Below the pieces are notes generated by a model. The model did not search any database. It saw nothing but the letters and a program-made list of their open reading frames with translations, and was not told where the DNA came from. From positions 1 through 31,981 of IMG/VR virus record IMGVR_UViG_3300032087_000486: a DNA stretch of 31,981 nucleotides, one strand, 5' to 3'. The position numbers and the translations under genes are program-made. How positions within the stretch are numbered: the stretch's first letter is position 1; the number at the start of each line of letters is the position of its first letter. The DNA comes from a virus. Positions 3,376-31,981 of the stretch are shown piece after piece.

Positions 3376-5688
3376 ATGGCGTCTATATTTGAAAGGTTCA
3401 AGAATTTAGTAACCAAAAACAGTCAACAAACAAACTTAGCTTTTAATAGAGCTATTTATAATTTTCTAGGAGAGACTCTAATTACTTCAGAGGACAATGA
3501 CGAAAGCTACATTAATAAAGGCTATAGATTTAACTCTACTGTTTATGCTATAGTTAACCTTATAACAAAAGCAGCGTCTACTGTTCCCTTTCAAGTTTAT
3601 GAGGTACAAAACTCAAACGAACTTAAAAGATATAAAGCACTAACCTCTGGAGACTTTGGCAACCTTACAAATCCAAGAGCGCAAATATCTTTAAAAAATG
3701 CGCTAGTAGAATTACAAGACACCGAGTTACACGAATTATTAGACCGCCCTAATCCAGCTCAGTCTTATTCTAGTTTTCTTTCTGAAATCATAGCCTTTGG
3801 TAAACTTACTGGAAACCGTTATATCTATGGCATAGCTCCAGAGAATGGAGTAAACGCTGGTAAATATGGCGAGCTTTATGTATTACCTAGCCAAACTATA
3901 GAAATACACTCTGGCGGTCTTATGAAACCAGTAGACCATTATACAATGGAGTACAACGGTACTTATAGAATGATGGCTGAAGACGTATGCCATATTAAAG
4001 ACTACAACCCTTTAGCAGACGGAACTGGTGCTAACCTATATGGTATGAGTCCTTTAAAAGCTGGGCTGAGGTCAATGGATGCTAATAACGAGGCGCTTAC
4101 TACTGGAGTTAGATATTTACAAAACCAAACAGCTAGAGGGGTGCTTATGAGTGAAGAGGGCGACCTCAACGAAATGCAAGCCAGACAGCTTAAAGAGAAA
4201 TTTAGAAAACAATACCAAGGCTCTAACAATGCTGGCGACGTTATTATAACTCCCAAGAAATTAAGCTGGGTAAACTTTGGACTTAATGCAGCTGACCTTT
4301 CGCTTATTGAACAATACAATACTACTATAAAAGACCTTTGTAATATTTATAACATACCAGCGGTACTTCTAAATAATGTAGAGTCGGCGACCTATAACAA
4401 TATTAAAGAGGCTCGCAAAATGCTTTATACTAATGCTGTTATTCCAGAGCTTTATAAAATTAGAGACGAACTCAATAGATGGCTAGCTCCTAAGTTTGGT
4501 GACAAACTATTTATAGACTTTGATACTTCAGTAATTCCAGAGCTACAAGAAGAAAGCGAAAAGATAGTTGAGCAAATGGCTAAGAGCTGGTGGCTTACTC
4601 CTAATGAGAAACGTATGGCTATGAGCTACGGTAAAGATGAAGAAAATTCAGAAATGGATGACTATTACGTTCCAGCTAACTTACTTCCTATAGGTAACTC
4701 TGATATGCCAGATATGACTCCAGACCCTATTAAAGAAGACTCTACTGAAAAAAGATTAGTTTCTGGAATGAACGACGTTTTTACTACTATAGCTGAGGCT
4801 AGAGCTAGAGCTAATGAAATGGGCGGCGAAGGTTACCACGAGCATATTTTTGACGGCTTTACTGTTTATATGCCTTTTGAAACTCACGAGGAATATGAAG
4901 CGGCTAAAGATAACAAGCTAGACGAATATTATGGCGAAATAGATGCTGATGCTTTTAATTACGACTTTGAGTTAGACTCTAGCTACTATGATGCCGATTC
5001 GGAATACGACGACGACGAAAATACAGAGTCTGAAGACTTAGCTATAATAACCAAAGCGCCTCAGATTTCCGAGACTATGGAGCGAGCGCTAAGAAATAAA
5101 GTAGAAGACCATAACGAGAAATATGGAGACGACCCAGCTAAACGAGCTACTTATTCTATGCTAGCTAGGTCATTTGTTAGAGGTATTGGTGCTTATAGAA
5201 CTAATCCTAGCTCAGTTAGACCTAGCGTTAATAATGAGCAGCAATGGGCTTTAGGTCGAGTCAATGGTTTATTATATGCGCTTAGAACTGGTAAATTTAG
5301 ACGTAGAGCTTATGATACAGACCTACTTCCAGAGGCGCATAACCTCAGCTCTAAAAAGACTAAAGCAGAAACTTTTGACGACTATCCACAAGGCGCTACC
5401 AATAATGCTAAACGTATGTTAGAATGGCGTGAGAAATATGGGAGAGACGTTGTAACTGCTGGAACTCCAGTCGGCTGGCGCAGAGCATCGGATTTGGCTG
5501 CAAGGCGTCCGCTCAGCCTATCTACTGTAAAGCGCATTAACAGCTTTTTAGCTAGGCATAAAGAAAACGCTAAAATAGACCCTAAGTTTAAAGATGAGCC
5601 TTGGAGAGATAAAGGCTATGTAGCTTACAATCTATGGGGCGGTGCTGCTATGGTAGCTTGGGCTAAACGTATTTCAGAAAATGCTTAA
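3376..5688 (+). CDS. Portal protein with long C-terminal extension
   Basis: A 770-aa protein. Roughly the first 430 residues look like an HK97/SPP1-type portal, the dodecameric ring through which DNA enters and leaves the capsid. The other 340 residues are unusual and have three parts. Residues ~465-510 are a small module with GYHEHIFDGFTVYMPFE, and ~512-556 are a very acidic linker. Residues ~560-660 are a module with GAYRTNPSSVRP and LLPEAHNLSS, and ~662-770 a module with NNAKRMLEWREKYG, VGWRRASDL and WGGAAMVAWAKR. I recognise the modules as types found in phage structural proteins, with no known function. Position after the terminase and before the MuF protein fits a portal. Confidence 0.9.
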   Translation: MASIFERFKNLVTKNSQQTNLAFNRAIYNFLGETLITSEDNDESYINKGYRFNSTVYAIVNLITKAASTVPFQVYEVQNSNELKRYKALTSGDFGNLTNPRAQISLKNALVELQDTELHELLDRPNPAQSYSSFLSEIIAFGKLTGNRYIYGIAPENGVNAGKYGELYVLPSQTIEIHSGGLMKPVDHYTMEYNGTYRMMAEDVCHIKDYNPLADGTGANLYGMSPLKAGLRSMDANNEALTTGVRYLQNQTARGVLMSEEGDLNEMQARQLKEKFRKQYQGSNNAGDVIITPKKLSWVNFGLNAADLSLIEQYNTTIKDLCNIYNIPAVLLNNVESATYNNIKEARKMLYTNAVIPELYKIRDELNRWLAPKFGDKLFIDFDTSVIPELQEESEKIVEQMAKSWWLTPNEKRMAMSYGKDEENSEMDDYYVPANLLPIGNSDMPDMTPDPIKEDSTEKRLVSGMNDVFTTIAEARARANEMGGEGYHEHIFDGFTVYMPFETHEEYEAAKDNKLDEYYGEIDADAFNYDFELDSSYYDADSEYDDDENTESEDLAIITKAPQISETMERALRNKVEDHNEKYGDDPAKRATYSMLARSFVRGIGAYRTNPSSVRPSVNNEQQWALGRVNGLLYALRTGKFRRRAYDTDLLPEAHNLSSKKTKAETFDDYPQGATNNAKRMLEWREKYGRDVVTAGTPVGWRRASDLAARRPLSLSTVKRINSFLARHKENAKIDPKFKDEPWRDKGYVAYNLWGGAAMVAWAKRISENA

Positions 5689-5691
5689 CCA

Positions 5692-7353
5692 ATGGCTGAT
5701 GTCAAAGATGACAAATATATTAGAGCCTATGATAAGCAGCTTAGAATAGGGGAGAGAAAAGAAATAGGCTCTGTAAGGTCTTATTACCAGCAACAATATA
5801 CTAAAGGAGTAGACCAGTTTATTAGGACTGGTAAAACTTCTGGTTTCAATGATTTATTTCTAGCGAGTGATTTAAATAGTATATACAATTCCATATATAC
5901 CAATATAGGTTTAAGGTTCGCCAACTGGTATGCAAACAATATAGACAAATACATTACAAAACAATTAGAAACAAATAAATACAAAGACACTTGGGAAACT
6001 GCATTTGCAAAAGAGGGGAACAGAGTTGCCGCAACAAGAGTTGTAACTGTAAGCGGAACTGCAAAAAAGGAGCTGGAGAAAACGCTAAAGAAACTAATGA
6101 CCGATGTAGATTTTCAGTCTGTAGGTGCAGACGAAAAAGCGAGAATACTGCGCAGAAGGTTTAATAAACTAGGTAAATACCAAGCTGAAAGGATAGTAAG
6201 GACTGAGGCTACTAACGCTGCTAACTTAGGAGTAATGCAGTCAGCTACTGACGTCTATGGAAAAAACGGCTTGCAGAAAAAATGGATTACTTCTATTGAT
6301 GGGCGAGAACGTTCAGCTCACGCAGCCGCTAATGGTCAAGTAGTAGACTTTAATGATAAATTTAAAGTAGGCGGAGAAATGCTAGACCGAGCTGGAGACC
6401 CAGCTGGCTCAGCTGCTAATGTAGTAAATTGTCGCTGCGCTATTGCGCCATTTCCTAAAGCAGAGGCTCAGACTATAACGCCTTTGACTGGTTTTGATTA
6501 TGGAATGAGCGCTGGAAGGGCTATAGGCTTAGATTCAGCTAATGCAGTTGATGATATACTAAAACCTAAACCTCAGCCAGTACGAGAGGTTGTAGAAGAA
6601 ACAAAACCAAAAGCAGTTATTCCAGATGAATTACAAGACAAAATAAATAAAGGCTGGGATGTTGGAGACTTGAGCTATTTAGATAATTTGGCTGATGAAA
6701 ACATTTCTTTTAATTTTGTTACTGGTAAAAAAGTTTCTAATTATAATAGAAATACAAACAGCGTTAATATAGTTTTAGGTAGGCGTTTTACAAAAAAAGG
6801 AAAAAACCTAAAGCACGTTTTAAGCCACGAATACGGACACGCTTTACATTATAGAAAAGGTTGGATTACTGGTAATGAGGGGAGAGGTTTTTTTGGAGCT
6901 AATATAGATGACTTTGATAAAGATATTGCTGACTTTTTTAAAGCAACAAATAAAAAAATTAGAGATTTAGAAAAAAATAATCCAAGATATATTGATGTTT
7001 TAACAAAACCAGAGGGCGGTAAAAATTATACTCAGAGATATAATAATTGGTATTATGAAAATTATGAAGGTACTATAGAAAAAGCTGTAAAAAAATATGG
7101 ATATACAAAAGAACTAGCTGAAGCTGAATTAGGTGCAATGGCTGATTTTTTTGGAGCTATAACAAAGAACAGAATAGGTTATGGTCATTCAACCTCGTAT
7201 TATACAGATAAAGGTATTGCTGGACAATTAGCCGAGATGTTTGCAAATGCACACGAAATTAGATTTGCTGATAACAAAATAATGAAGGAAATGTTTCCAG
7301 AATTATATAACGACATTATAGATTTTATCAATAAAATGATTAATAGATTATAA
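5692..7353 (+). CDS. MuF-type head morphogenesis protein fused to HEXXH metallopeptidase
   Basis: A 553-aa, two-part protein. Residues ~1-255 are a MuF/SPP1 gp7-type minor head protein, with RIVRTEATNAAN, DGRERSAHAAANG (from D203) and the terminal NCRC (246-249) typical of that family. These proteins sit inside the head near the portal and can be ejected with DNA. After a Pro-rich linker (~290-310), residues ~310-553 form a separate domain with the zinc peptidase motif HEYGH (379-383) and a likely third ligand E515 in AEMFAN. Known MuF fusions with variable C-termini have been described as phage polymorphic toxins, and this layout fits. Alternatively the peptidase may act in head maturation. 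Toxicity is inference. Confidence 0.88.
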   Translation: MADVKDDKYIRAYDKQLRIGERKEIGSVRSYYQQQYTKGVDQFIRTGKTSGFNDLFLASDLNSIYNSIYTNIGLRFANWYANNIDKYITKQLETNKYKDTWETAFAKEGNRVAATRVVTVSGTAKKELEKTLKKLMTDVDFQSVGADEKARILRRRFNKLGKYQAERIVRTEATNAANLGVMQSATDVYGKNGLQKKWITSIDGRERSAHAAANGQVVDFNDKFKVGGEMLDRAGDPAGSAANVVNCRCAIAPFPKAEAQTITPLTGFDYGMSAGRAIGLDSANAVDDILKPKPQPVREVVEETKPKAVIPDELQDKINKGWDVGDLSYLDNLADENISFNFVTGKKVSNYNRNTNSVNIVLGRRFTKKGKNLKHVLSHEYGHALHYRKGWITGNEGRGFFGANIDDFDKDIADFFKATNKKIRDLEKNNPRYIDVLTKPEGGKNYTQRYNNWYYENYEGTIEKAVKKYGYTKELAEAELGAMADFFGAITKNRIGYGHSTSYYTDKGIAGQLAEMFANAHEIRFADNKIMKEMFPELYNDIIDFINKMINRL

Positions 7354-7354
7354 T

Positions 7355-7537
7355 ATGTTACAAAAATTAATTTTAGAATATATTGAACAGTACCCTAATG
7401 AAGAAAATCCATTTACATATTTACCACAATTAGGAGAGGACTTTTTGATTGAAGTTTTAAAAAATAGAAATAGGAGAAAAATCAATTTTGATTTTATTGA
7501 TGGCGTAGATGATGACTTTAATTTAATTTATTTATAA
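7355..7537 (+). CDS. Small acidic protein, possible immunity partner of the MuF-peptidase
   Basis: A 60-aa acidic protein starting 1 base after the stop of the MuF-metallopeptidase gene, so the two are almost certainly cotranscribed and probably coupled. It is leucine-rich at the N-terminus (LQKLILEYIEQYP) and ends with an acidic patch containing DGVDDDF. There is no signal peptide or membrane segment, and I recognise no family. In polymorphic toxin systems the immunity gene directly follows the toxin and is often small and acidic. That is the basis for the suggestion, and it is inference only. It could equally be an unrelated small head gene. Confidence 0.6.
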   Translation: MLQKLILEYIEQYPNEENPFTYLPQLGEDFLIEVLKNRNRRKINFDFIDGVDDDFNLIYL

Positions 7538-7541
7538 TTAA

Positions 7542-7549
7542 TATCTTTG
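7542..7549 (+). promoter_or_regulatory. TAnnTTTG box upstream of prohead protease
   Basis: TATCTTTG is followed by CACTATG, so the box ends only 4 bases before the start codon at 7554. The same TTTGCACTATG string precedes the tape measure gene. If this is a -7 element, the transcript would be leaderless or nearly so. Confidence 0.5.
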
Positions 7550-7553
7550 CACT

Positions 7554-8243
7554 ATGAACACAATTTTATATAAACAAGCGCCTATGGGCGAACTCCTAGA
7601 CGCTGACGAAAAAGCTGGAGTTGTCAAAGGTTACGCTAGTGTTTTTGATAACAAAGACTCCGATAATGATATTATAAGAAAAGGCTCTTATAGAAAAACC
7701 ATTGCAGAAAATGGTCAAAGAGTCAAATACTTATACCAGCACGATATGGATAAGCCTCTGGGTAAAATGTCAATGCTAGAAGAAGACGACAAAGGTTTAG
7801 TATTCGAGGCTAAAATAGCTAAGACTACTTTAGGTAACGACGTTATCGAACTCATTAAAGCTGGAGTTATTACAGAAAATTCAGTAGGTATATTACCTAT
7901 TCAAAAAGAAATGGTCGACGGTGTTAGAAATATAACAGAGGTTAAACTTTATGAAGTTTCCGCTGTTACTCTAGCAGCAAACGACCAAGCGCTTATTATG
8001 GATGTAAAAGGGAATTATGACCCAGACAAAGTACTAAAGCGCTACGATAATATGGCAAAACTTATTCGTAAAGGAAATATTTCCGACGACTTAGGTTATG
8101 CTATAGAAGCGGAAATACTCAAGTTAAAGTCGCTATTTGCTAAATTATCTACTCAGCCAACAGATATTGAAGTTACTGAGCCAGTTGTAGTAAAGAATGA
8201 AGTTGGCGAGATGTATAAATATTTGTTTAATAAATTAAAATAA
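7554..8243 (+). CDS. Prohead (capsid maturation) protease, HK97 family
   Basis: A 229-aa serine protease of the HK97 prohead protease (U35) type, which trims the scaffold part of the capsid protein during head maturation. Visible features are GYASVFDN near the N-terminus, H63 in YQHDMDKPLG, Ser110 in ENSVG and an acidic residue near E134 in the YEVSAV segment. These form the expected His-Ser-acid set. The ATG at 7554 is preceded by a TAnnTTTG box. The major capsid protein follows after 6 bases, the standard order in HK97-type phages. Confidence 0.94.
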   Translation: MNTILYKQAPMGELLDADEKAGVVKGYASVFDNKDSDNDIIRKGSYRKTIAENGQRVKYLYQHDMDKPLGKMSMLEEDDKGLVFEAKIAKTTLGNDVIELIKAGVITENSVGILPIQKEMVDGVRNITEVKLYEVSAVTLAANDQALIMDVKGNYDPDKVLKRYDNMAKLIRKGNISDDLGYAIEAEILKLKSLFAKLSTQPTDIEVTEPVVVKNEVGEMYKYLFNKLK

Positions 8244-8249
8244 TTTGAA

Positions 8250-9467
8250 ATGACTGAAGAAGTTAAAAACCAGTTAGACCAAATTGGAAACATTGTAGAC
8301 GAAAAGATTGAAAAAGCGTTTCACGCTGCAAAAGACAACGCCAAAGGCGAAGTTGAAGAGTCTTTAAAGTCTGAGATTTCTAACTTGACTAACGAGTATA
8401 ATGAAAAATTCGAAGCAGCTACTAAAAGAATGGATGCTATCGAAATTGAGTCTAAAAAGACTTTATCTAATGCAACTCCTAAGAGCTTTAAAGCATCTTT
8501 AGAGGCTGCTATTAAAGAAGGCGCTATTGAAGCTATGGTTAAAGGTAATACTAATGCCGCACGCTTTGAAGTTAAGTCTTCTGATATGACAATGGCTAAC
8601 ACTTTTACTGGCGTTGTAGCTGGTGAAACTGTAGTGCCAGACGTTAAATTTGACCCTAGTAGAGCGGTGCATATTCGCTCATTGATTCCTAACGGTTCAA
8701 CTGATTCTCAAACTATCCGTTTTCCTAAAGAAAGCGCTTATACTGATAATGCTGCTGCAACTGCTCAAGGTTCTACTCTAGGACAATCAGATTTTGATAT
8801 TACGGCTACTTCTGTAAACGTAGAAAAAATTGGTACGTTTATGAGAATTACTGAAGAAATGCTAGCAGATACTCCACAGCTTTCAAGCTACTTATCAGCT
8901 AGAGTACCTTCTAAAGTATTATCTAAAGAAGATGCTGAGATTCTTAACGGTGATGGTTCAAGCCCTAACTTAGATGGTTTATTTACTGATGGTGCTGCTT
9001 TTGTAACGGCGTCTTCAGCTAATTTTTACCAGTCTATCGAGTCAGCTAATGAGTACGACGTACTTATTGCAGCTTTAGACCAGTTAGCAGCTAGCAACTA
9101 TTCAGCTGATACTATCCTTTTAAACCCAGTTGATTTCCATAAAATTGTTTTATTGAAGTCTACTGCTAACGAATACTTGAAAAATCAAGTTATTCAAGGG
9201 GTTCAGCCAGCAATTATGGGAGTGCCAATTACTTTGAATACAGCTGTAACTGCTGGTAAATTCTTAGTAGGTAATCTAGCTCAAGCTACTCAGCTTTGGA
9301 TTAGAGACGGTTTAGGAGTCGAGTTTTCAAGAGAAGACTCTACTAACTTCCGTGATGGGTTCGTAACTGTTAGAGCGCAAGAAAGAGTTGCTTTAACTAA
9401 TTATCAGCCTAATGCGATTGTACAAGGCACGTTTAGCACAGCTAAAACTGCACTTGAGACTCCCTAA
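8250..9467 (+). CDS. Major capsid protein, HK97 fold
   Basis: A 405-aa major capsid precursor. Residues ~1-105 are a charged, coiled-coil-like delta domain that would act as built-in scaffold and be removed by the neighbouring protease. The rest carries the HK97-fold pattern, for example ADTILLNPVDFHKI, a RITEEML segment and a C-terminal FRAxxR-like stretch (FVTVRAQERVAL). The gene is separated from the next by a terminator at 9499-9526, which fits very high expression as its own transcript end. Codon use follows the core genes. Confidence 0.95.
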   Translation: MTEEVKNQLDQIGNIVDEKIEKAFHAAKDNAKGEVEESLKSEISNLTNEYNEKFEAATKRMDAIEIESKKTLSNATPKSFKASLEAAIKEGAIEAMVKGNTNAARFEVKSSDMTMANTFTGVVAGETVVPDVKFDPSRAVHIRSLIPNGSTDSQTIRFPKESAYTDNAAATAQGSTLGQSDFDITATSVNVEKIGTFMRITEEMLADTPQLSSYLSARVPSKVLSKEDAEILNGDGSSPNLDGLFTDGAAFVTASSANFYQSIESANEYDVLIAALDQLAASNYSADTILLNPVDFHKIVLLKSTANEYLKNQVIQGVQPAIMGVPITLNTAVTAGKFLVGNLAQATQLWIRDGLGVEFSREDSTNFRDGFVTVRAQERVALTNYQPNAIVQGTFSTAKTALETP

Positions 9468-14841: not shown

Positions 14842-17424
14842 ATGGGTACTAGTTTAAGTGGAACTAAAATAAAAGATACTTATGATGGTCTAATAAAGAC
14901 GTCAAATAATTCAGCTGTAGGCTCTTCTAATGTAGAACTTACAGACGGTTTAGGGAATGATATTAATATTTCCATAAACAATACTGGGGACTTAACAGCT
15001 GACGGTGATATAACAGCGGCTAGTATTATAAAGTCTGGCGGTACTTCAACTCAAATACTTTTAGCTAACGGTACTATAGTAACTTTAACTGCAGAGTCTT
15101 CTGGCATAAGTTCCAATGACTCAGATTCTAACGTGCCTACAAATGCAGCGGTTAAAGATTATGTAGATACTGAAATTTCAGACCTTATAGATGGCTCGCC
15201 AACTGCTTTAGACACTCTTAACGAGTTAGCAGCCGCACTAGGAGACGACGCTAACTTTAGTACTACTATAACAACTGCTCTAGGTAATAGGCTTAGAATT
15301 GACGTTAGTAATCAAGGTTTGACTACAACAGAAAAAACAAACGCTTTAACTAATTTAGGTATAAGCTCTAGCCCTACTGAATTGAATATTTTAGATGGCG
15401 CTACATTATCAACTGCTGAACTTAATTTTGTAGATGGCGTTACTTCAGCTATTCAAACTCAATTAGATAGCAAACAAGACGAATTAACAGCTGGAACTGG
15501 TATTAGTATTTCTGGCACAACTATAGCTACTGATTTAACAAATTTAGTAGATACTGGAGCTATACAAAACGACGCTGTAACCGCTATTAAATTAAGTCAG
15601 TTTGACGACAACCTTACAGCGGCTACTGGAGGTGATATACTAGTTTCTAATGGTACTGATTTTGATAATGTAACTGTAACTGGAGACGTTAGTATTAGTA
15701 GCTCTGGAGTTACTACGATAGCAACTGGAGCAGTAGAAACTGGAATGTTAGCAGCTGACGCCGTTACTGGTGCAAAGATAGCAGACGACGCCGTAGACTC
15801 AGAACACATAGCAGCTGGGGCTATTGATACAGAGCATTTTTCAGTAGGCTCTGTAGATAATTCTACTTTAGGTGCTGATTCTGTAACTGGTGCAAAGATA
15901 GCAGACGACGCTATAGATAGCGAGCATTATGCCGCTGGTAGTATTGATGAAGAACATTTAAACGTAACTAATACGCCAACTGACGGCTATGTTTTAACTT
16001 ATGACTCTACTAGCGCTGGGTTTACTTGGGAAGAAAAATTTGACGGTGATATTACTGGAATAGTAGCTGGAGCTGGTTTAACTGGAGACGCTACTTCTGG
16101 AGACGCCTCTTTAGCAGTAGGTGCTGGAACTGGTATAACAGTTAACGCTAATGATGTACAAATTTCTGACGGCGGAGTAGGTACTACTCAACTAGCAGCG
16201 GATGCGGTCGATGGCACTAAAATAGCTGATGACTCTATAGACTCTGAGCATTATGTAGCTGGTAGTATTGACAACGAGCATTTAGCGGCAAACTCTGTAG
16301 ACTCAGATAATTATGTAGACGGTAGTATTGATACCGCTCATATAGGAGACGACCAAGTAACAGCCGCTAAAATAGAAGACAATATACAGCTAGACGGAAC
16401 TGAGTCTTTAGGAGTGCCAGCTGGTACGACAGCACAAAGACCTAGCACACCAGCCGCTGGTATGTTTAGGTATAATACGACAGACGGAAAGTTTGAAGGT
16501 TATACTACTGAATGGGGAGAAATTGGCGGCGGCGGCGGCTCGGCTACTTTAGCAGTAGACCAGCAAACATTTAACGGCGACGGTTCAACGGTTGCTTTTA
16601 CGCTAAGTACTAGTTGCGATTCAGAAAATAATTTACAAGTTTATATAGATGGGGTTTACCAGTCTAAAAGTAATTTTTCTGTAAGTGGCACTACTTTAAC
16701 TTTTTCAACTGCTCCAGCAACTGGAACAAACAATATAGAAGTTATACATATAACAAGTATGGCTGGCTCTGTAGAGGTCGATACTTTTACTGGAGACGGC
16801 TCAGATACTACTTTTGACCTATCAACTAATATAAGTGCTGAAAATAACACTCAAGTATTTTTAGACGGTGTTTATCAGTCAAAAGGTAATTATAGTATTT
16901 CTGGCACTACAATAACTTTTAGCACAGCTCCAGCTAATGGAGTGGCTATAGAAGTAGTACACTTTTTGCCCTCTGGTGATTTTACTATTGGCGCAGTAGA
17001 TAGCGGAGACGACGCTATAATAAGACTATCTGGAACTAACGGCTTTACAGACGACGTAAAGCTAGTGGCTGGTAGTAATATAACTATAACGCCTAGCGGA
17101 GATAATATTACAATAGCGTCAAACGTTAGTACTAGTTATTCAGTTTCTGTAATTTCTAGTAATACAACAGCCGTAGCGAATACTTTATATGTATTAACAG
17201 CTACGCTTACTTTAACTTTACCAGCCTCACCGAGCGCTGGTGATAGTATAAAAGTTTCAAATAGGTCTGGAGTAGCAACTGCAACTATTGCTAGAAATAG
17301 TGAAAATATAATGGGAGCTGCTGAAGATTTAACTTTAGATAAATTAAACGCTGGTTTTGAGCTAATCTACTCTGGCTCAGCTCAAGGTTGGATATTAATA
17401 GGAGTAGAAGGTACAAGCGCATAA
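14842..17424 (+). CDS. Long tail fibre-like protein
   Basis: An 860-aa fibrous virion protein. The N-terminal third carries modules common in marine phage fibres, such as NAAVKDYVDTEISDLIDG, LDTLNELAAALGDDANF and a TELNILDGATLS/AELNFVDGVT pair. The middle holds degenerate repeats of a unit like AVTGAKIADDAIDSEHYAAG. Residues 577-637 and 649-707 are two copies of a beta domain (for example DGVYQSKSNFSVSGTT and DGVYQSKGNYSISGTT). The C-terminus ends in a separate beta domain. It probably contributes to host contact. The repeats are shared with the smaller fibre at 18496, so the two may exchange segments. Confidence 0.85.
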   Translation: MGTSLSGTKIKDTYDGLIKTSNNSAVGSSNVELTDGLGNDINISINNTGDLTADGDITAASIIKSGGTSTQILLANGTIVTLTAESSGISSNDSDSNVPTNAAVKDYVDTEISDLIDGSPTALDTLNELAAALGDDANFSTTITTALGNRLRIDVSNQGLTTTEKTNALTNLGISSSPTELNILDGATLSTAELNFVDGVTSAIQTQLDSKQDELTAGTGISISGTTIATDLTNLVDTGAIQNDAVTAIKLSQFDDNLTAATGGDILVSNGTDFDNVTVTGDVSISSSGVTTIATGAVETGMLAADAVTGAKIADDAVDSEHIAAGAIDTEHFSVGSVDNSTLGADSVTGAKIADDAIDSEHYAAGSIDEEHLNVTNTPTDGYVLTYDSTSAGFTWEEKFDGDITGIVAGAGLTGDATSGDASLAVGAGTGITVNANDVQISDGGVGTTQLAADAVDGTKIADDSIDSEHYVAGSIDNEHLAANSVDSDNYVDGSIDTAHIGDDQVTAAKIEDNIQLDGTESLGVPAGTTAQRPSTPAAGMFRYNTTDGKFEGYTTEWGEIGGGGGSATLAVDQQTFNGDGSTVAFTLSTSCDSENNLQVYIDGVYQSKSNFSVSGTTLTFSTAPATGTNNIEVIHITSMAGSVEVDTFTGDGSDTTFDLSTNISAENNTQVFLDGVYQSKGNYSISGTTITFSTAPANGVAIEVVHFLPSGDFTIGAVDSGDDAIIRLSGTNGFTDDVKLVAGSNITITPSGDNITIASNVSTSYSVSVISSNTTAVANTLYVLTATLTLTLPASPSAGDSIKVSNRSGVATATIARNSENIMGAAEDLTLDKLNAGFELIYSGSAQGWILIGVEGTSA
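15766..15911 (+). repeat. Direct repeat pair inside the long fibre gene
   Basis: The 26-base string beginning ACTGGTGCAAAGATAGCAGA is present at 15766-15791 and, identically, at 15886-15911, exactly 120 bases apart. It encodes the TGAKIADDA repeat of the fibre. A diverged copy is in the fibre gene at 18496. Such repeats are hot spots for length change. Confidence 0.85.
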
Positions 17425-17435
17425 AATAAAATAAT

Positions 17436-18149
17436 ATGGCAAATTTTTCAAGTTTTTTTCCTAGTGCTGGCGGCGGTGGCTCAACTGCAGCAACAACTAA
17501 AGAAATAAATGGGGTAACGTATGAAAATGTTTACACTACTCCAGATGCTGCTTTTTATCACGCTAGCTTTATTAATTCTGGTGATATTTTTTTAGATGAA
17601 AACACAAATTTACAAAGCTATCAAATTAGTACAATGAATGATAGTAATTTATATACTTTAGATATGTCGGCACAAACTCTAGGGTCATATCATACAGTAG
17701 CAAATATCACAAGTGCAACAAATGGAGGTTTTTTTTATTGGGCAGTAAGTGCAGCTCCAGTAACGAGTTTAATTAGTGGTTATAAAATAAAAATTACTAT
17801 TGATGGTACTGCTTATGAATATATTGGAGACGGCAATGATACGACCAGCAGAAGTTATAATAGATTCATATTAGGAGCATTTTTACCTTTAGCTAAAAAT
17901 GGCACAAATTATAGAAATGCTTTAATTAGCGGGGGTATGACAACTAAAATTAACAATACTAACAAAACTTTAGATAGAACTTATATTGCTATGGCTGAAG
18001 GGGTTTATTTGCCAGATTCTTACGTTATAAAAGAGTATGGTATGAAAAAAATATATTTTGAAACTAGCTGTAAAGTTGAAATGCAAATGTCAACCTATAA
18101 CGCTAATAGTTCGCAAGGGCTAGCTGGAGCATTAATAGAAACTCTATAA
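17436..18149 (+). CDS. Hypothetical tail/fibre-region protein (237 aa)
   Basis: A 237-aa protein beginning MANFSSFFPSAGGGGSTAATTKEING, a Gly/Ser-rich head seen in short fibre or tip proteins, followed by beta-rich sequence with many Asn, Ser and Thr. There are no signal peptide, membrane segment or enzyme motifs. It lies 11 bases after the long fibre and 2 bases before a fibre-assembly-like gene, so it is probably another receptor-contact subunit. It appears to be the substrate of that chaperone by position only. Confidence 0.65.
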   Translation: MANFSSFFPSAGGGGSTAATTKEINGVTYENVYTTPDAAFYHASFINSGDIFLDENTNLQSYQISTMNDSNLYTLDMSAQTLGSYHTVANITSATNGGFFYWAVSAAPVTSLISGYKIKITIDGTAYEYIGDGNDTTSRSYNRFILGAFLPLAKNGTNYRNALISGGMTTKINNTNKTLDRTYIAMAEGVYLPDSYVIKEYGMKKIYFETSCKVEMQMSTYNANSSQGLAGALIETL

Positions 18150-18151
18150 TT

Positions 18152-18469
18152 ATGAAAACGATATTAAGTCAAACAAATTTAACTGAGTCTTCAAGAAATG
18201 ATAACCCTATAAATGGGGATATTTTAAGATATGAATATACAGACGGAACTATAATTGAAAAACAATTACATATTCCAACTGAAGAAGAATTACAAAATAA
18301 TGCTGCAAACGACGCTAGAGCTTGGCGTAATAATGAATTGCAAGCTACTGATTTTATTGTACCTCTTAGCGACTATCCAAATAGAGACGCTTGGCTAACA
18401 TACAGACAAGAATTAAGAGACTGGACAACAACATCTGATTTTCCAGAGACAAAACCAACTAAACCATAA
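18152..18469 (+). CDS. Tail fibre assembly chaperone-like protein
   Basis: A 105-aa protein whose C-terminal half, DARAWRNNELQATDFIVPLS and then PNRDAWLTYRQELRDW, matches the end of the Tfa/XkdW type of fibre assembly proteins, which help trimerise fibres or stay at the fibre tip. It follows a fibre-region gene by 2 bases, the normal layout for this pair. The N-terminal half is short and variable. A second gene of the same general type lies at 19028. Confidence 0.75.
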   Translation: MKTILSQTNLTESSRNDNPINGDILRYEYTDGTIIEKQLHIPTEEELQNNAANDARAWRNNELQATDFIVPLSDYPNRDAWLTYRQELRDWTTTSDFPETKPTKP

Positions 18470-18474
18470 TTTCG

Positions 18475-18482
18475 TAAATTTG
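18475..18482 (+). promoter_or_regulatory. TAnnTTTG box upstream of short fibre gene
   Basis: TAAATTTG, then TAAAAAATAA, 21 bases before the ATG at 18496. Same box as before the portal, fibre and tail tube genes, without a matching -33 TTG. Confidence 0.45.
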
Positions 18483-18495
18483 TAAAAAATAAGAT

Positions 18496-19026
18496 ATGGC
18501 AATAACTAAAGTAAGCTCAGACGTAATTAAAGATGGCGCTATAGATACTACTCAGCTAGCCGCTGACGCTGTAACTGGAGCTAAAATAGCTGATGATGCT
18601 ATAGACAGCGAACATTATACAGACGGCTCTATAGATACGGCTCACATAGCAGACAATAACATAACGCACGATAAACTAGAAAATAGATATACAGCTAGCG
18701 GAAGTATCACAACTTATACTGGAGCGGTTTCTGTAGACTGGTCAAGTGCTACTAATTTTGTTATGGGTTCAAGTTTGACTGGTGCTATTGAGTTTGATTT
18801 TACAAATTTTAAAACTGGTCAAGTTTTAACTATTCATAACCTAACTGGGTCTCAAACTATAACGCTAGACTCAGATGCAGCTACTAGCGAAACTTTTAAT
18901 AAGGTGGGTGGCGTTGACTATAACGGTACTGCTACTAATGTTTTAATGGTCGAATGTATAGACGACGACGCTACTGCTGTATTTAATTATTCAATATTAA
19001 CTTATACTTCAGATACTACTCCTTAA
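18496..19026 (+). CDS. Short fibre-like protein sharing repeats with the long fibre
   Basis: A 176-aa protein. Residues ~14-65 are the repeat type seen in the long fibre (AADAVTGAKIADDAIDSEHY, then DGSIDTAHIADN). The C-terminal ~110 residues form a beta domain with TGAIEFDFTNFKTGQVLTIH and GSQTITLDSD. This looks like a fibre shaft plus tip. It is followed after 1 base by a second chaperone-like gene. It may be an alternative or additional receptor-binding subunit. Duplication from the long fibre is likely, given near-identical repeat units. Confidence 0.75.
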   Translation: MAITKVSSDVIKDGAIDTTQLAADAVTGAKIADDAIDSEHYTDGSIDTAHIADNNITHDKLENRYTASGSITTYTGAVSVDWSSATNFVMGSSLTGAIEFDFTNFKTGQVLTIHNLTGSQTITLDSDAATSETFNKVGGVDYNGTATNVLMVECIDDDATAVFNYSILTYTSDTTP

Positions 19027-31059: not shown

Positions 31060-31981
31060 TACAAGACTTCTTAGCATTAGGAATAGAAGTAAAATCTAAT
31101 GCAAACAACCAAAAACTTATTTGTCCAAAATGCTCTCACCAGAGACGTAATAAACAAGACCGCTGCCTATCTATTAATTTACAAGAGGGCTTATATAATT
31201 GCCATCATTGCGGTTGGGGTGGCAATGTAAAATTTAAACCAAAAAAAGAATATGTAAAGCCAGTTGTAGTTAAGTCTGAATTAGGAGACCGTACCCTAAG
31301 CTGGTTTAACAAAAGAGGTATTTCAGAGGCTACTGTAGTTAATTGGAAAATAACAGAAAGCCAAGAGTACTTTCCTCAAATACAAAAAAACCGAAAAGCA
31401 ATAAACTTTAACTACTATAGAAATGGCGAACTCATAAATATAAAATATAGAGACGCTGAGAAAAACTTTAAACTTGTTTCTGGTGCTGAATTAATATTTT
31501 ATGGACTAGACAATATCAAAGATAGTAGCAAAGTTTACATAGTAGAAGGCGAAATGGATGCTTTAAGTCTATATGAGGCTGGTATTTATTCAGTTGTTTC
31601 AGTACCTAATGGAGCGTCTAAAGGTAACCAGCGCTTAGATTATTTAGACAACTGCTATAAGTACTTTGAAGACAAAAAAGAAATTATTTTGTGTACTGAT
31701 AATGACGACGCTGGACTAAGTTTAAGAAATGAATTAGCAAGACGTCTTGGAAAGTACCGCTGTAAGTATGTCGAATTTAGCGAATACAAAGACGCTAACG
31801 AGGTTTTAATTAAAAAAGGTGCTGAGACCTTACGGAGTATTTTAAAAGCCGTTAAAACGTTTCCTTTGGATGGAGTCATAAATATTAATGATATTTGGGA
31901 AAATGTTTTATTATTTAATGAAAAAGGAATTAAAAATTTCTCAATCGGTCTTAACGACTCTAATAATTATTTTAATGTTTC
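31056..31981 (+). CDS. Primase-helicase (T7 gp4-like), N-terminal primase part
   Basis: First part of a 557-aa replicative primase-helicase that continues at base 1. It would make RNA primers and unwind DNA at the fork. The N-terminus carries a zinc-binding module with C23-x2-C26 and C49-x2-C52. A Toprim catalytic fold follows, with E164 in EGEMDAL and the acidic group D215-N-D217-D218. These features and their order match the T7 gp4 family. The ATG overlaps the stop of the upstream PD-(D/E)XK gene (ATGA at 31056). It closes the early replication block that begins near 26776. Confidence 0.93.
   Translation, partial: MIQDFLALGIEVKSNANNQKLICPKCSHQRRNKQDRCLSINLQEGLYNCHHCGWGGNVKFKPKKEYVKPVVVKSELGDRTLSWFNKRGISEATVVNWKITESQEYFPQIQKNRKAINFNYYRNGELINIKYRDAEKNFKLVSGAELIFYGLDNIKDSSKVYIVEGEMDALSLYEAGIYSVVSVPNGASKGNQRLDYLDNCYKYFEDKKEIILCTDNDDAGLSLRNELARRLGKYRCKYVEFSEYKDANEVLIKKGAETLRSILKAVKTFPLDGVININDIWENVLLFNEKGIKNFSIGLNDSNNYFNV
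31891..31981. repeat. Terminal direct repeat (circular assembly overlap), right copy
   Basis: Exact copy of positions 1-91. Removing one copy gives a circle of 31,890 bp. The repeat lies inside the coding sequence of the primase-helicase, between its Toprim and RecA-like helicase domains. Confidence 0.95.

Follow-up and report, generated by a model that had tools for sequence, protein, structure and literature searches.

A candidate effector–immunity cassette at the end of a MuF head protein gene in an apparently virulent sea phage

Introduction

What is a metallopeptidase-like domain doing at the end of a phage head protein, and why does a small acidic gene follow it at once? Both questions are raised by a sea-phage sequence, IMG/VR record IMGVR_UViG_3300032087_000486, which was analysed over its whole length of 31,981 bases (the window). 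A first-pass annotation had read its MuF-type minor head protein and the next open reading frame (ORF) as a candidate toxin and immunity pair. From comparison with related loci, we find it probable that the segment running from the linker of the MuF protein to the end of the small ORF, which encodes 60 amino acids (aa), is an effector–immunity cassette.

MuF toxins have so far been explained by lysogeny. Jamet et al. found them in temperate phages only, mainly of Firmicutes, and a metallopeptidase domain is present in 20% of the 191 MuF toxins listed (PMC3482391, PMC5576092). For Bxa, an ADP-ribosyltransferase MuF toxin of the Bacteroides prophage PhiBxa, neutralisation by a pair of small immunity proteins encoded next to it has been shown (PMC11699363).

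Results

The MuF protein ends in a zinc-peptidase-like domain

The two ORFs have the coordinates and lengths given by the first-pass annotation (Table 1), with a single base (7354) between the stop codon of the MuF gene and the ATG of the small ORF. The genes come in the order terminase, portal, MuF protein, 60-aa ORF, S78 prohead protease and major capsid protein, and Pfam searches identified the first half of the 553-aa product as a MuF head protein, as annotated. The second half (the tail) had been described as a separate domain behind a Pro-rich linker. It does lie outside PF04233, is absent from many relatives, and was predicted with confidence as a fold of its own when modelled alone (pLDDT 87.4, pTM 0.88).

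Forty-eight related tails were aligned, including three carried on other MuF backbones (L144, L146 and L151), each of which is followed by a small acidic ORF. Nine residues were invariant: H379, E380, H383, D485, G496, G498, H499, E515 and N528. The tail motif is therefore not due to chance. The invariant residues include the HExxH of HEYGH and the E515 of AEMFAN, both of which had been noted at these positions, and the alignment shows the zincin arrangement of HExxH with a conserved acidic candidate zinc ligand downstream. In the model, HExxH is on one helix (74-90, numbering of the modelled piece) and E515 on a later one (202-226), which makes this invariant glutamate the natural candidate for the third zinc ligand; D485 or H499 are alternative candidates. 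L001 carries the first relative of the window tail that was found in IMG/VR; comparison of the window with it gave a dN/dS of 0.07 in the tail and of 0.12 in the 60-aa ORF. The two together form a compositional island, with a GC content of 0.25-0.32 compared with 0.41-0.46 in the MuF core: at the linker GC drops from about 0.45 to 0.27, and it rises again past the small ORF.

Neither the tail nor the 60-aa protein matched a Pfam family above cut-off, and neither was matched in PADLOC or NCBIfam. Foldseek comparison of the tail model with the PDB gave no match at E≤0.001. In a second structure comparison, the first 23 rows were lethal-factor-like and PPEP zinc peptidases with VIA Z scores of 6.8-8.2, near the tool's own uncertain level, and the next row scored 5.7; nearly all structural neighbours were zinc peptidases. 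In a viral structure library, the model matched viral head proteins.

In the M34 family, which includes lethal factor and PPEP, a tyrosine stands seven residues ahead of the zinc-binding glutamate (Y-x6-E). The window tail, which is of the type that we call A, resembles M34 in HExxH and may resemble it distantly in overall fold, at the near-uncertain Z scores just given. The Y-x6-E spacing is retained in tails of types B, C and D; it was present in 9 of 9 type B/C tails and in the Flavobacterium phages lotta8-1 and pippi8-1. Type A tails differ in having an invariant D...GxGH...E, and their sequence match to M34 was not significant (E 0.27). Y-x6-E was found anywhere downstream in 29 of the 48 type A tails, and the window has no tyrosine seven residues before E515. 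As the pattern is neither conserved in type A nor present before E515, we did not file the window tail under M34.

The window tail alone is homologous to other MuF C-terminal domains (phrog_4728, E 1.4e-9). The MuF proteins of Enterococcus phage VEsP-1 (PHROG 4728) and Listeria phage B054 (gp4) likewise end in a diverged zincin tail and, as in the window, have a small ORF (76 or 56 aa) beside the MuF gene. They differ in that the tails are only about 25-31% identical over the aligned part, and their small ORFs have no recognisable sequence relation to that of the window. A tblastn search of named phages with type A tails gave sub-threshold matches to these two phages only, a relation later backed by the PHROG 4728 match.

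The first-pass description of the 60-aa product as acidic and without a known family also held, its net charge being −6. Modelled alone, it was predicted with high confidence (pLDDT 91.5) as three helices and a hairpin. A fold search with this model found nothing (best E 2.4) and gives no evidence of a new fold, and a search of named phages with the ORF gave chance matches only. A DNA-binding role was rejected, a weak match to Myb (E 0.096) being attributable to chance.

Each tail class has its own small ORF

MuF genes were gathered with three baits, the MuF core, the prohead protease and the tail, and were de-duplicated by sequence. Loci were classified by profiles of the tail (class A, the window type, and class B, the THEFGH/THEFAH/THETAH type) and of the small ORF (A3, the window type, and A4, the Cys-motif type), the profiles having been trained on part of the loci that they classify. 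The set comprised 111 distinct MuF loci with enough downstream sequence, and most relatives were metagenome contigs.

Type A tails and A3 ORFs occurred together in 42 loci, the tail alone in none and the ORF alone in 2, with neither in the remaining 67; an A3 ORF was directly behind the tail in 42 of 42 type A loci. For type B tails and A4 ORFs the corresponding counts were 14 with both, 1 with the tail only, 0 with the ORF only and 96 with neither. Fisher values of 1e-28 (A) and 7e-17 (B) overstate the independence of the loci, because the phages are related. Among the 54 tail-free MuF genes, 53 had neither small ORF. When the 79 loci gathered without the tail bait were considered separately, 11 of 11 type A and 14 of 15 type B tails had their own partner, and 52 of 53 tailless genes had none.

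Six MuF-core clusters hold two or three of these states each, every state with its matching small ORF except for the orphans described below and L089. Moreover, in 75 pairs of loci with cores at least 60% identical and tails less than 50% identical, each change of tail class between A and B was accompanied by a change of small-ORF class. Tail and small ORF therefore co-vary in relatives, as the first-pass reading of a toxin with its own immunity gene would have it.

L089 (1686-2669) is the one B-like locus without an A4 ORF: its zincin tail, with its best score to the lethal-factor family (PF07737, E 3.4e-6), has an acidic C-terminal extension and no separate ORF; the extension is possibly the partner fused to the tail. 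In L113 a stop codon splits the MuF core (263-1018) from a type A tail (1022-1702), with an A3 ORF next; either the tail has a gene of its own there or the stop is a sequencing error. The tail and small-ORF genes of related loci often overlap.

A place in the head gene cluster beside the prohead protease would also suit a head-maturation or self-processing protease, the small ORF then encoding its substrate or propeptide. This is very unlikely. The tail is not a fixed part of such head proteins, being absent from 54 of the 111 loci, and a conserved role in maturation was rejected on this ground; phages whose MuF cores are 80-90% identical lack it entirely. Furthermore, an S78 prohead protease was present in each locus sampled by that protease, and a structural role would not predict swaps of unrelated tail classes between near-identical phages.

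Tail and small ORF are exchanged as a unit

Comparison of the window with L001 gave amino-acid identities of 86% for the tail and 65% for the small ORF, against 48% for the MuF core and 72% for the prohead protease. The MuF cores nearest to that of the window (81-87%) are followed by a diverged type A tail (L004 and L006), a different tail (L008) or no tail (L009 and L010), and cores that are 80-100% identical carry no tail or A, B or other tails.

Two cultured phages of Flavobacterium sp. LMO8, lotta8-1 and pippi8-1, which have been treated among lytic phages (PMC7077304), are almost 100% identical in DNA sequence through the portal gene and MuF core. At the linker the identity is lost, down to background level, and it is back at 100% once the small ORF has ended. 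The tail of the first contains HEFGH and that of the second HEIGH, with small proteins of 66 aa, bearing the Cys motif, and of 70 aa, acidic and unrelated to the other, respectively. Going by their annotation, these phages and the window have portal, capsid and head-protease genes of different families; the type B pair therefore travels between head modules that are not related. DNA identity profiles of L039/L046 and L061/L065 showed the same exchange, from A to B, between flanks that are 95-100% identical.

Within 36 complete type A loci, distances between small ORFs followed those between tails when core and protease were controlled for (partial Mantel r=0.38, p=0.0005), and did not follow those between cores when tail and protease were controlled for (r=0.07, p=0.18). 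Small-ORF distances were also linked, less strongly, to those of the neighbouring protease (r=0.19, p=0.006), as would be expected of adjacent genes. We conclude that the tail and the small gene form a single unit of inheritance and exchange.

Small ORFs persist without the tail

Obligate adjacency, frequent gene overlap and co-exchange would fit equally well if the small protein were a dedicated chaperone or loading adaptor of its tail, needed for folding or entry into the procapsid, and not an inhibitor. Such a helper would have nothing to serve where its tail is missing. In L055 a tailless MuF gene is followed by an A3 ORF, and in L056 a type B tail and its A4 ORF are followed by the same A3 ORF. 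What separates the two genomes is a clean indel comprising tail B and A4, with the orphan A3 kept. Comparison of the two orphans gave pN 0.035 and pS 0.333 (dN/dS 0.08), indicating that they have been maintained under purifying selection though no A tail is present.

Profile searches were made of 399 Flavobacteriales and 395 Bacteroidia genomes. Stand-alone chromosomal homologues of A3 were found in G025 and G476 (E 2.1e-14 each) and in G351 (E 2.6e-7); these three intact copies align along the full length of the window protein, and a degraded copy is present in G069. Their neighbours are an HTH-M78 regulator gene (G025), an argK-like gene (G476), and KilA-N, DUF6508 and pyrB/pyrR-like genes (G351), names without Pfam support having been assigned by reading the sequences. 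An A4 homologue (58% identity) lies between rdgB-like and pepT-like genes at 4001-4210 on a chromosomal contig of a Flavobacteriales metagenome-assembled genome (G016/L229, CAIJTF010000111.1), and a second, in G346, is the first gene on contig C25, ahead of a Hint-domain gene. No MuF gene was recognised beside any of the host copies of A3 or A4. Stand-alone chromosomal homologues of the 60-aa ORF are located at L238 3613-3810, L245 3858-4070 and L239 4853-5092, near small genes without an assigned function and HTH-M78, HNH-like and KilA-N genes.

The tail profile matched none of the 399 Flavobacteriales genomes at E≤1e-6, in a search that had no positive control among those genomes. There were weaker matches in G346 (E 2.1e-5) and in G025 (E 7.2e-5), the latter to a 228-aa chromosomal protein with AAHECGHAV, which was judged unrelated. 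A search of 84,980 genomes with the A1 sequence gave no match.

The small genes therefore persist without the tail both in phages and on bacterial chromosomes. Because of the orphans in L055 and L056 and the stand-alone A3 and A4 copies on tail-free chromosomes, we favour immunity, and regard a chaperone or adaptor as improbable.

Lifestyle and host

Tyrosine integrase and serine recombinase domains (PF00589 and PF00239) were searched for in the window and in 14 related records of 30-34 kb, and none was found; controls for this search gave a signal in 14 of 14 and 10 of 14 of the related records. The window phage and its relatives thus appear to be virulent, judging from their gene content, and integration by another route is possible. 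A temperate lifestyle, which is a reported association of MuF toxins and not part of their definition, was not detected in the window or the 14 related records. The host is probably Flavobacteriia-like, as suggested by lotta8-1 and pippi8-1 and by the chromosomal partner genes.

Features of the window

The first 91 bases of the window are identical to the last (31891-31981), forming a perfect direct terminal repeat, and the window is therefore a complete, circularly closing genome of about 31.9 kb. The features of the locus are given in Table 1. The string TATCTTTG matches the Bacteroidota promoter element TAnnTTTG and is a putative promoter.

The portal protein extends about 350 aa past its Pfam domain (4620-5688), as it also does in L001 and L055. 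Elsewhere, a probable cytosine-specific DNA methyltransferase with an SSPPCPSHS motif (842-1492) adjoins the replication genes. Repeats of 107 nucleotides, 65-71% identical, lie inside putative tail-fibre genes (15733-18647); they are common to the ORFs at 14842-17424 and 18496-19026, and are possible recombination points for fibre exchange.

Table 1. Positions of the cassette and flanking features in the window
Feature	Position	Strand	Basis
Portal protein, 770 aa, directly upstream of the MuF gene	3376..5688	+	PF04860, E 2.5e-57, residues 54-415
MuF minor head protein, 553 aa, ending in a peptidase-like tail	5692..7353	+	ORF and Pfam
Conserved MuF core, residues 1-299	5692..6588	+	Pfam and 12-sequence alignment
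Phage_Mu_F domain, PF04233, residues 121-251	6052-6444	+	E 1.5e-11, above cut-off; ends well short of the tail
Pro/Lys/Glu-rich linker, residues ~290-305, left edge of exchanged segment	6559..6606	+	Sequence; identity steps at ~6590-6600
Type A zinc-peptidase-like tail, residues 305-553	6604..7350	+	Alignment, model and structural neighbours
HEYGH, residues 379-383; HExxH invariant in 48 tails	6826..6840	+	Tail alignment
D485, invariant	7144..7146	+	Tail alignment
GYGH, residues 496-499; GxGH motif with invariant G, G and H	7177..7188	+	Tail alignment
E515, invariant, candidate third zinc ligand	7234..7236	+	Tail alignment; model helix 202-226
Partner gene of the A3 family, acidic 60-aa product, candidate immunity protein	7355..7537	+	ORF; predicted three helices and beta hairpin
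TATCTTTG, right edge of exchanged segment, putative promoter element	7542..7549	+	L004 and L006 have the identical string at this position
S78 prohead protease, first gene past the cassette	7554..8243	+	PF04586, E 8.8e-29
Major capsid protein	8250..9467	+	PF05065, E 3.9e-38

Discussion

The window locus has a MuF domain in the head gene cluster, a C-terminus that varies on a kept core and a downstream ORF that is exchanged together with it. MuF polymorphic toxins are likewise built of an N-terminal MuF domain, a variable C-terminal effector domain and a small ORF directly downstream, and we infer that the locus belongs with them, with toxicity of the tail and neutralisation by the small protein as part of this assignment. 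It differs from them in having no detectable integrase and in having cassette relatives in cultured lytic Flavobacterium phages. Other differences are that only zinc-peptidase tails were seen here, and that orphan partners occur in phages and on host chromosomes. Bxa and the window protein are both MuF head proteins from Bacteroidota phages that end in an effector, a candidate one in the window, and have small proteins encoded beside them, neutralisation being experimental for Bxa only. They differ in that the effector of Bxa is an ADP-ribosyltransferase and that Bxa is encoded by a prophage.

An effector with its immunity protein best fits an enzyme domain on a head protein, a class-specific neighbour, exchange as a unit, orphans and partner genes in hosts. 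The pair suggested by the first-pass annotation thus gains support from the co-variation of tail and ORF and from the fact that the tail is not fixed; toxicity, injection and neutralisation are what we infer from these patterns. In outline, the MuF core would hold the tail inside the head close to the portal, from where a few copies may enter a new cell with the DNA. There, free of its partner, the peptidase may cleave a cell protein, and so harm the cell or a competing phage or disable a defence. The 60-aa protein, which is co-translated with the tail, would bind and block it during assembly, leaving the infected cell unpoisoned until lysis, and may in addition weaken peptidases that superinfecting phages bring. 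Orphan copies would then be immunity genes retained against non-self cassettes. In type VI secretion system (T6SS) immunity arrays, an old immunity gene remains when a new effector–immunity pair displaces the old one (PMC5361080). L056, which keeps an A3 ORF beside tail B and A4, is comparable, except that the arrays concern effectors of a bacterial secretion system and here the effectors would be phage head proteins.

Several observations weigh against this explanation. The orphans are few: in phages they are limited to a single lineage, with two contigs, and in hosts to three solid A3 copies and two A4 copies, and the host copies could have another role. The zincin tail of L089 has no recognised partner. 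Finally, all tails seen were zinc peptidases, unlike the classic polymorphic toxins, which swap nucleases, ADP-ribosyltransferases and others, so that proteolysis may serve something narrower than toxicity. This uniformity suggests a common strategy, the proteolysis of one kind of target or several, as opposed to a mixed toxin arsenal.

A serious alternative to toxicity is accordingly that the tail is an injected protease for take-over of the cell or for counter-defence, and not a strict toxin, with the small ORF keeping it off during assembly. Delivery and inhibition would be the same as in the effector–immunity explanation, with which it overlaps, and only the purpose would differ. That every tail type seen is a protease speaks for it, as does the occurrence of tails in phages that have no detectable integrase and in others that have been described as lytic; for zincin-bearing polyvalent phage proteins, an action on the host at an early stage of infection has also been proposed (PMC5512222). 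On the other hand, about half of the relatives are tail-free, which makes the function dispensable, and the partner copies borne by hosts suggest that cells benefit from blocking the tail. We regard take-over or counter-defence as possible, and as the less probable purpose.

What is new here is the presence of MuF cassettes in apparently virulent Bacteroidota phages, with zinc-peptidase tails only and with orphan partners in phages and hosts. Because the same architecture and exchange of cassettes are found in seemingly strictly virulent phages, lysogeny is not the general reason for joining effectors to MuF proteins; phages of the window type and the lytic relatives of the cassette speak against a temperate-only rule. 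As lotta8-1 and pippi8-1 grow on one host and differ by a tail and partner exchanged as a unit, the action of a MuF effector on the cell is directly testable. A bolder and rather tentative proposal is that head-borne peptidases drove a two-sided immunity economy, in which phages swap peptidase–inhibitor cassettes against cells or rival phages, and phages and Flavobacteriales keep stand-alone A3 and A4 inhibitors. If this is true, the stand-alone genes would be an unrecognised anti-phage or anti-superinfection defence against injected peptidases. Through such lone partner genes on their chromosomes, cells may have a simple means, not recognised until now, of making injected phage proteins harmless.
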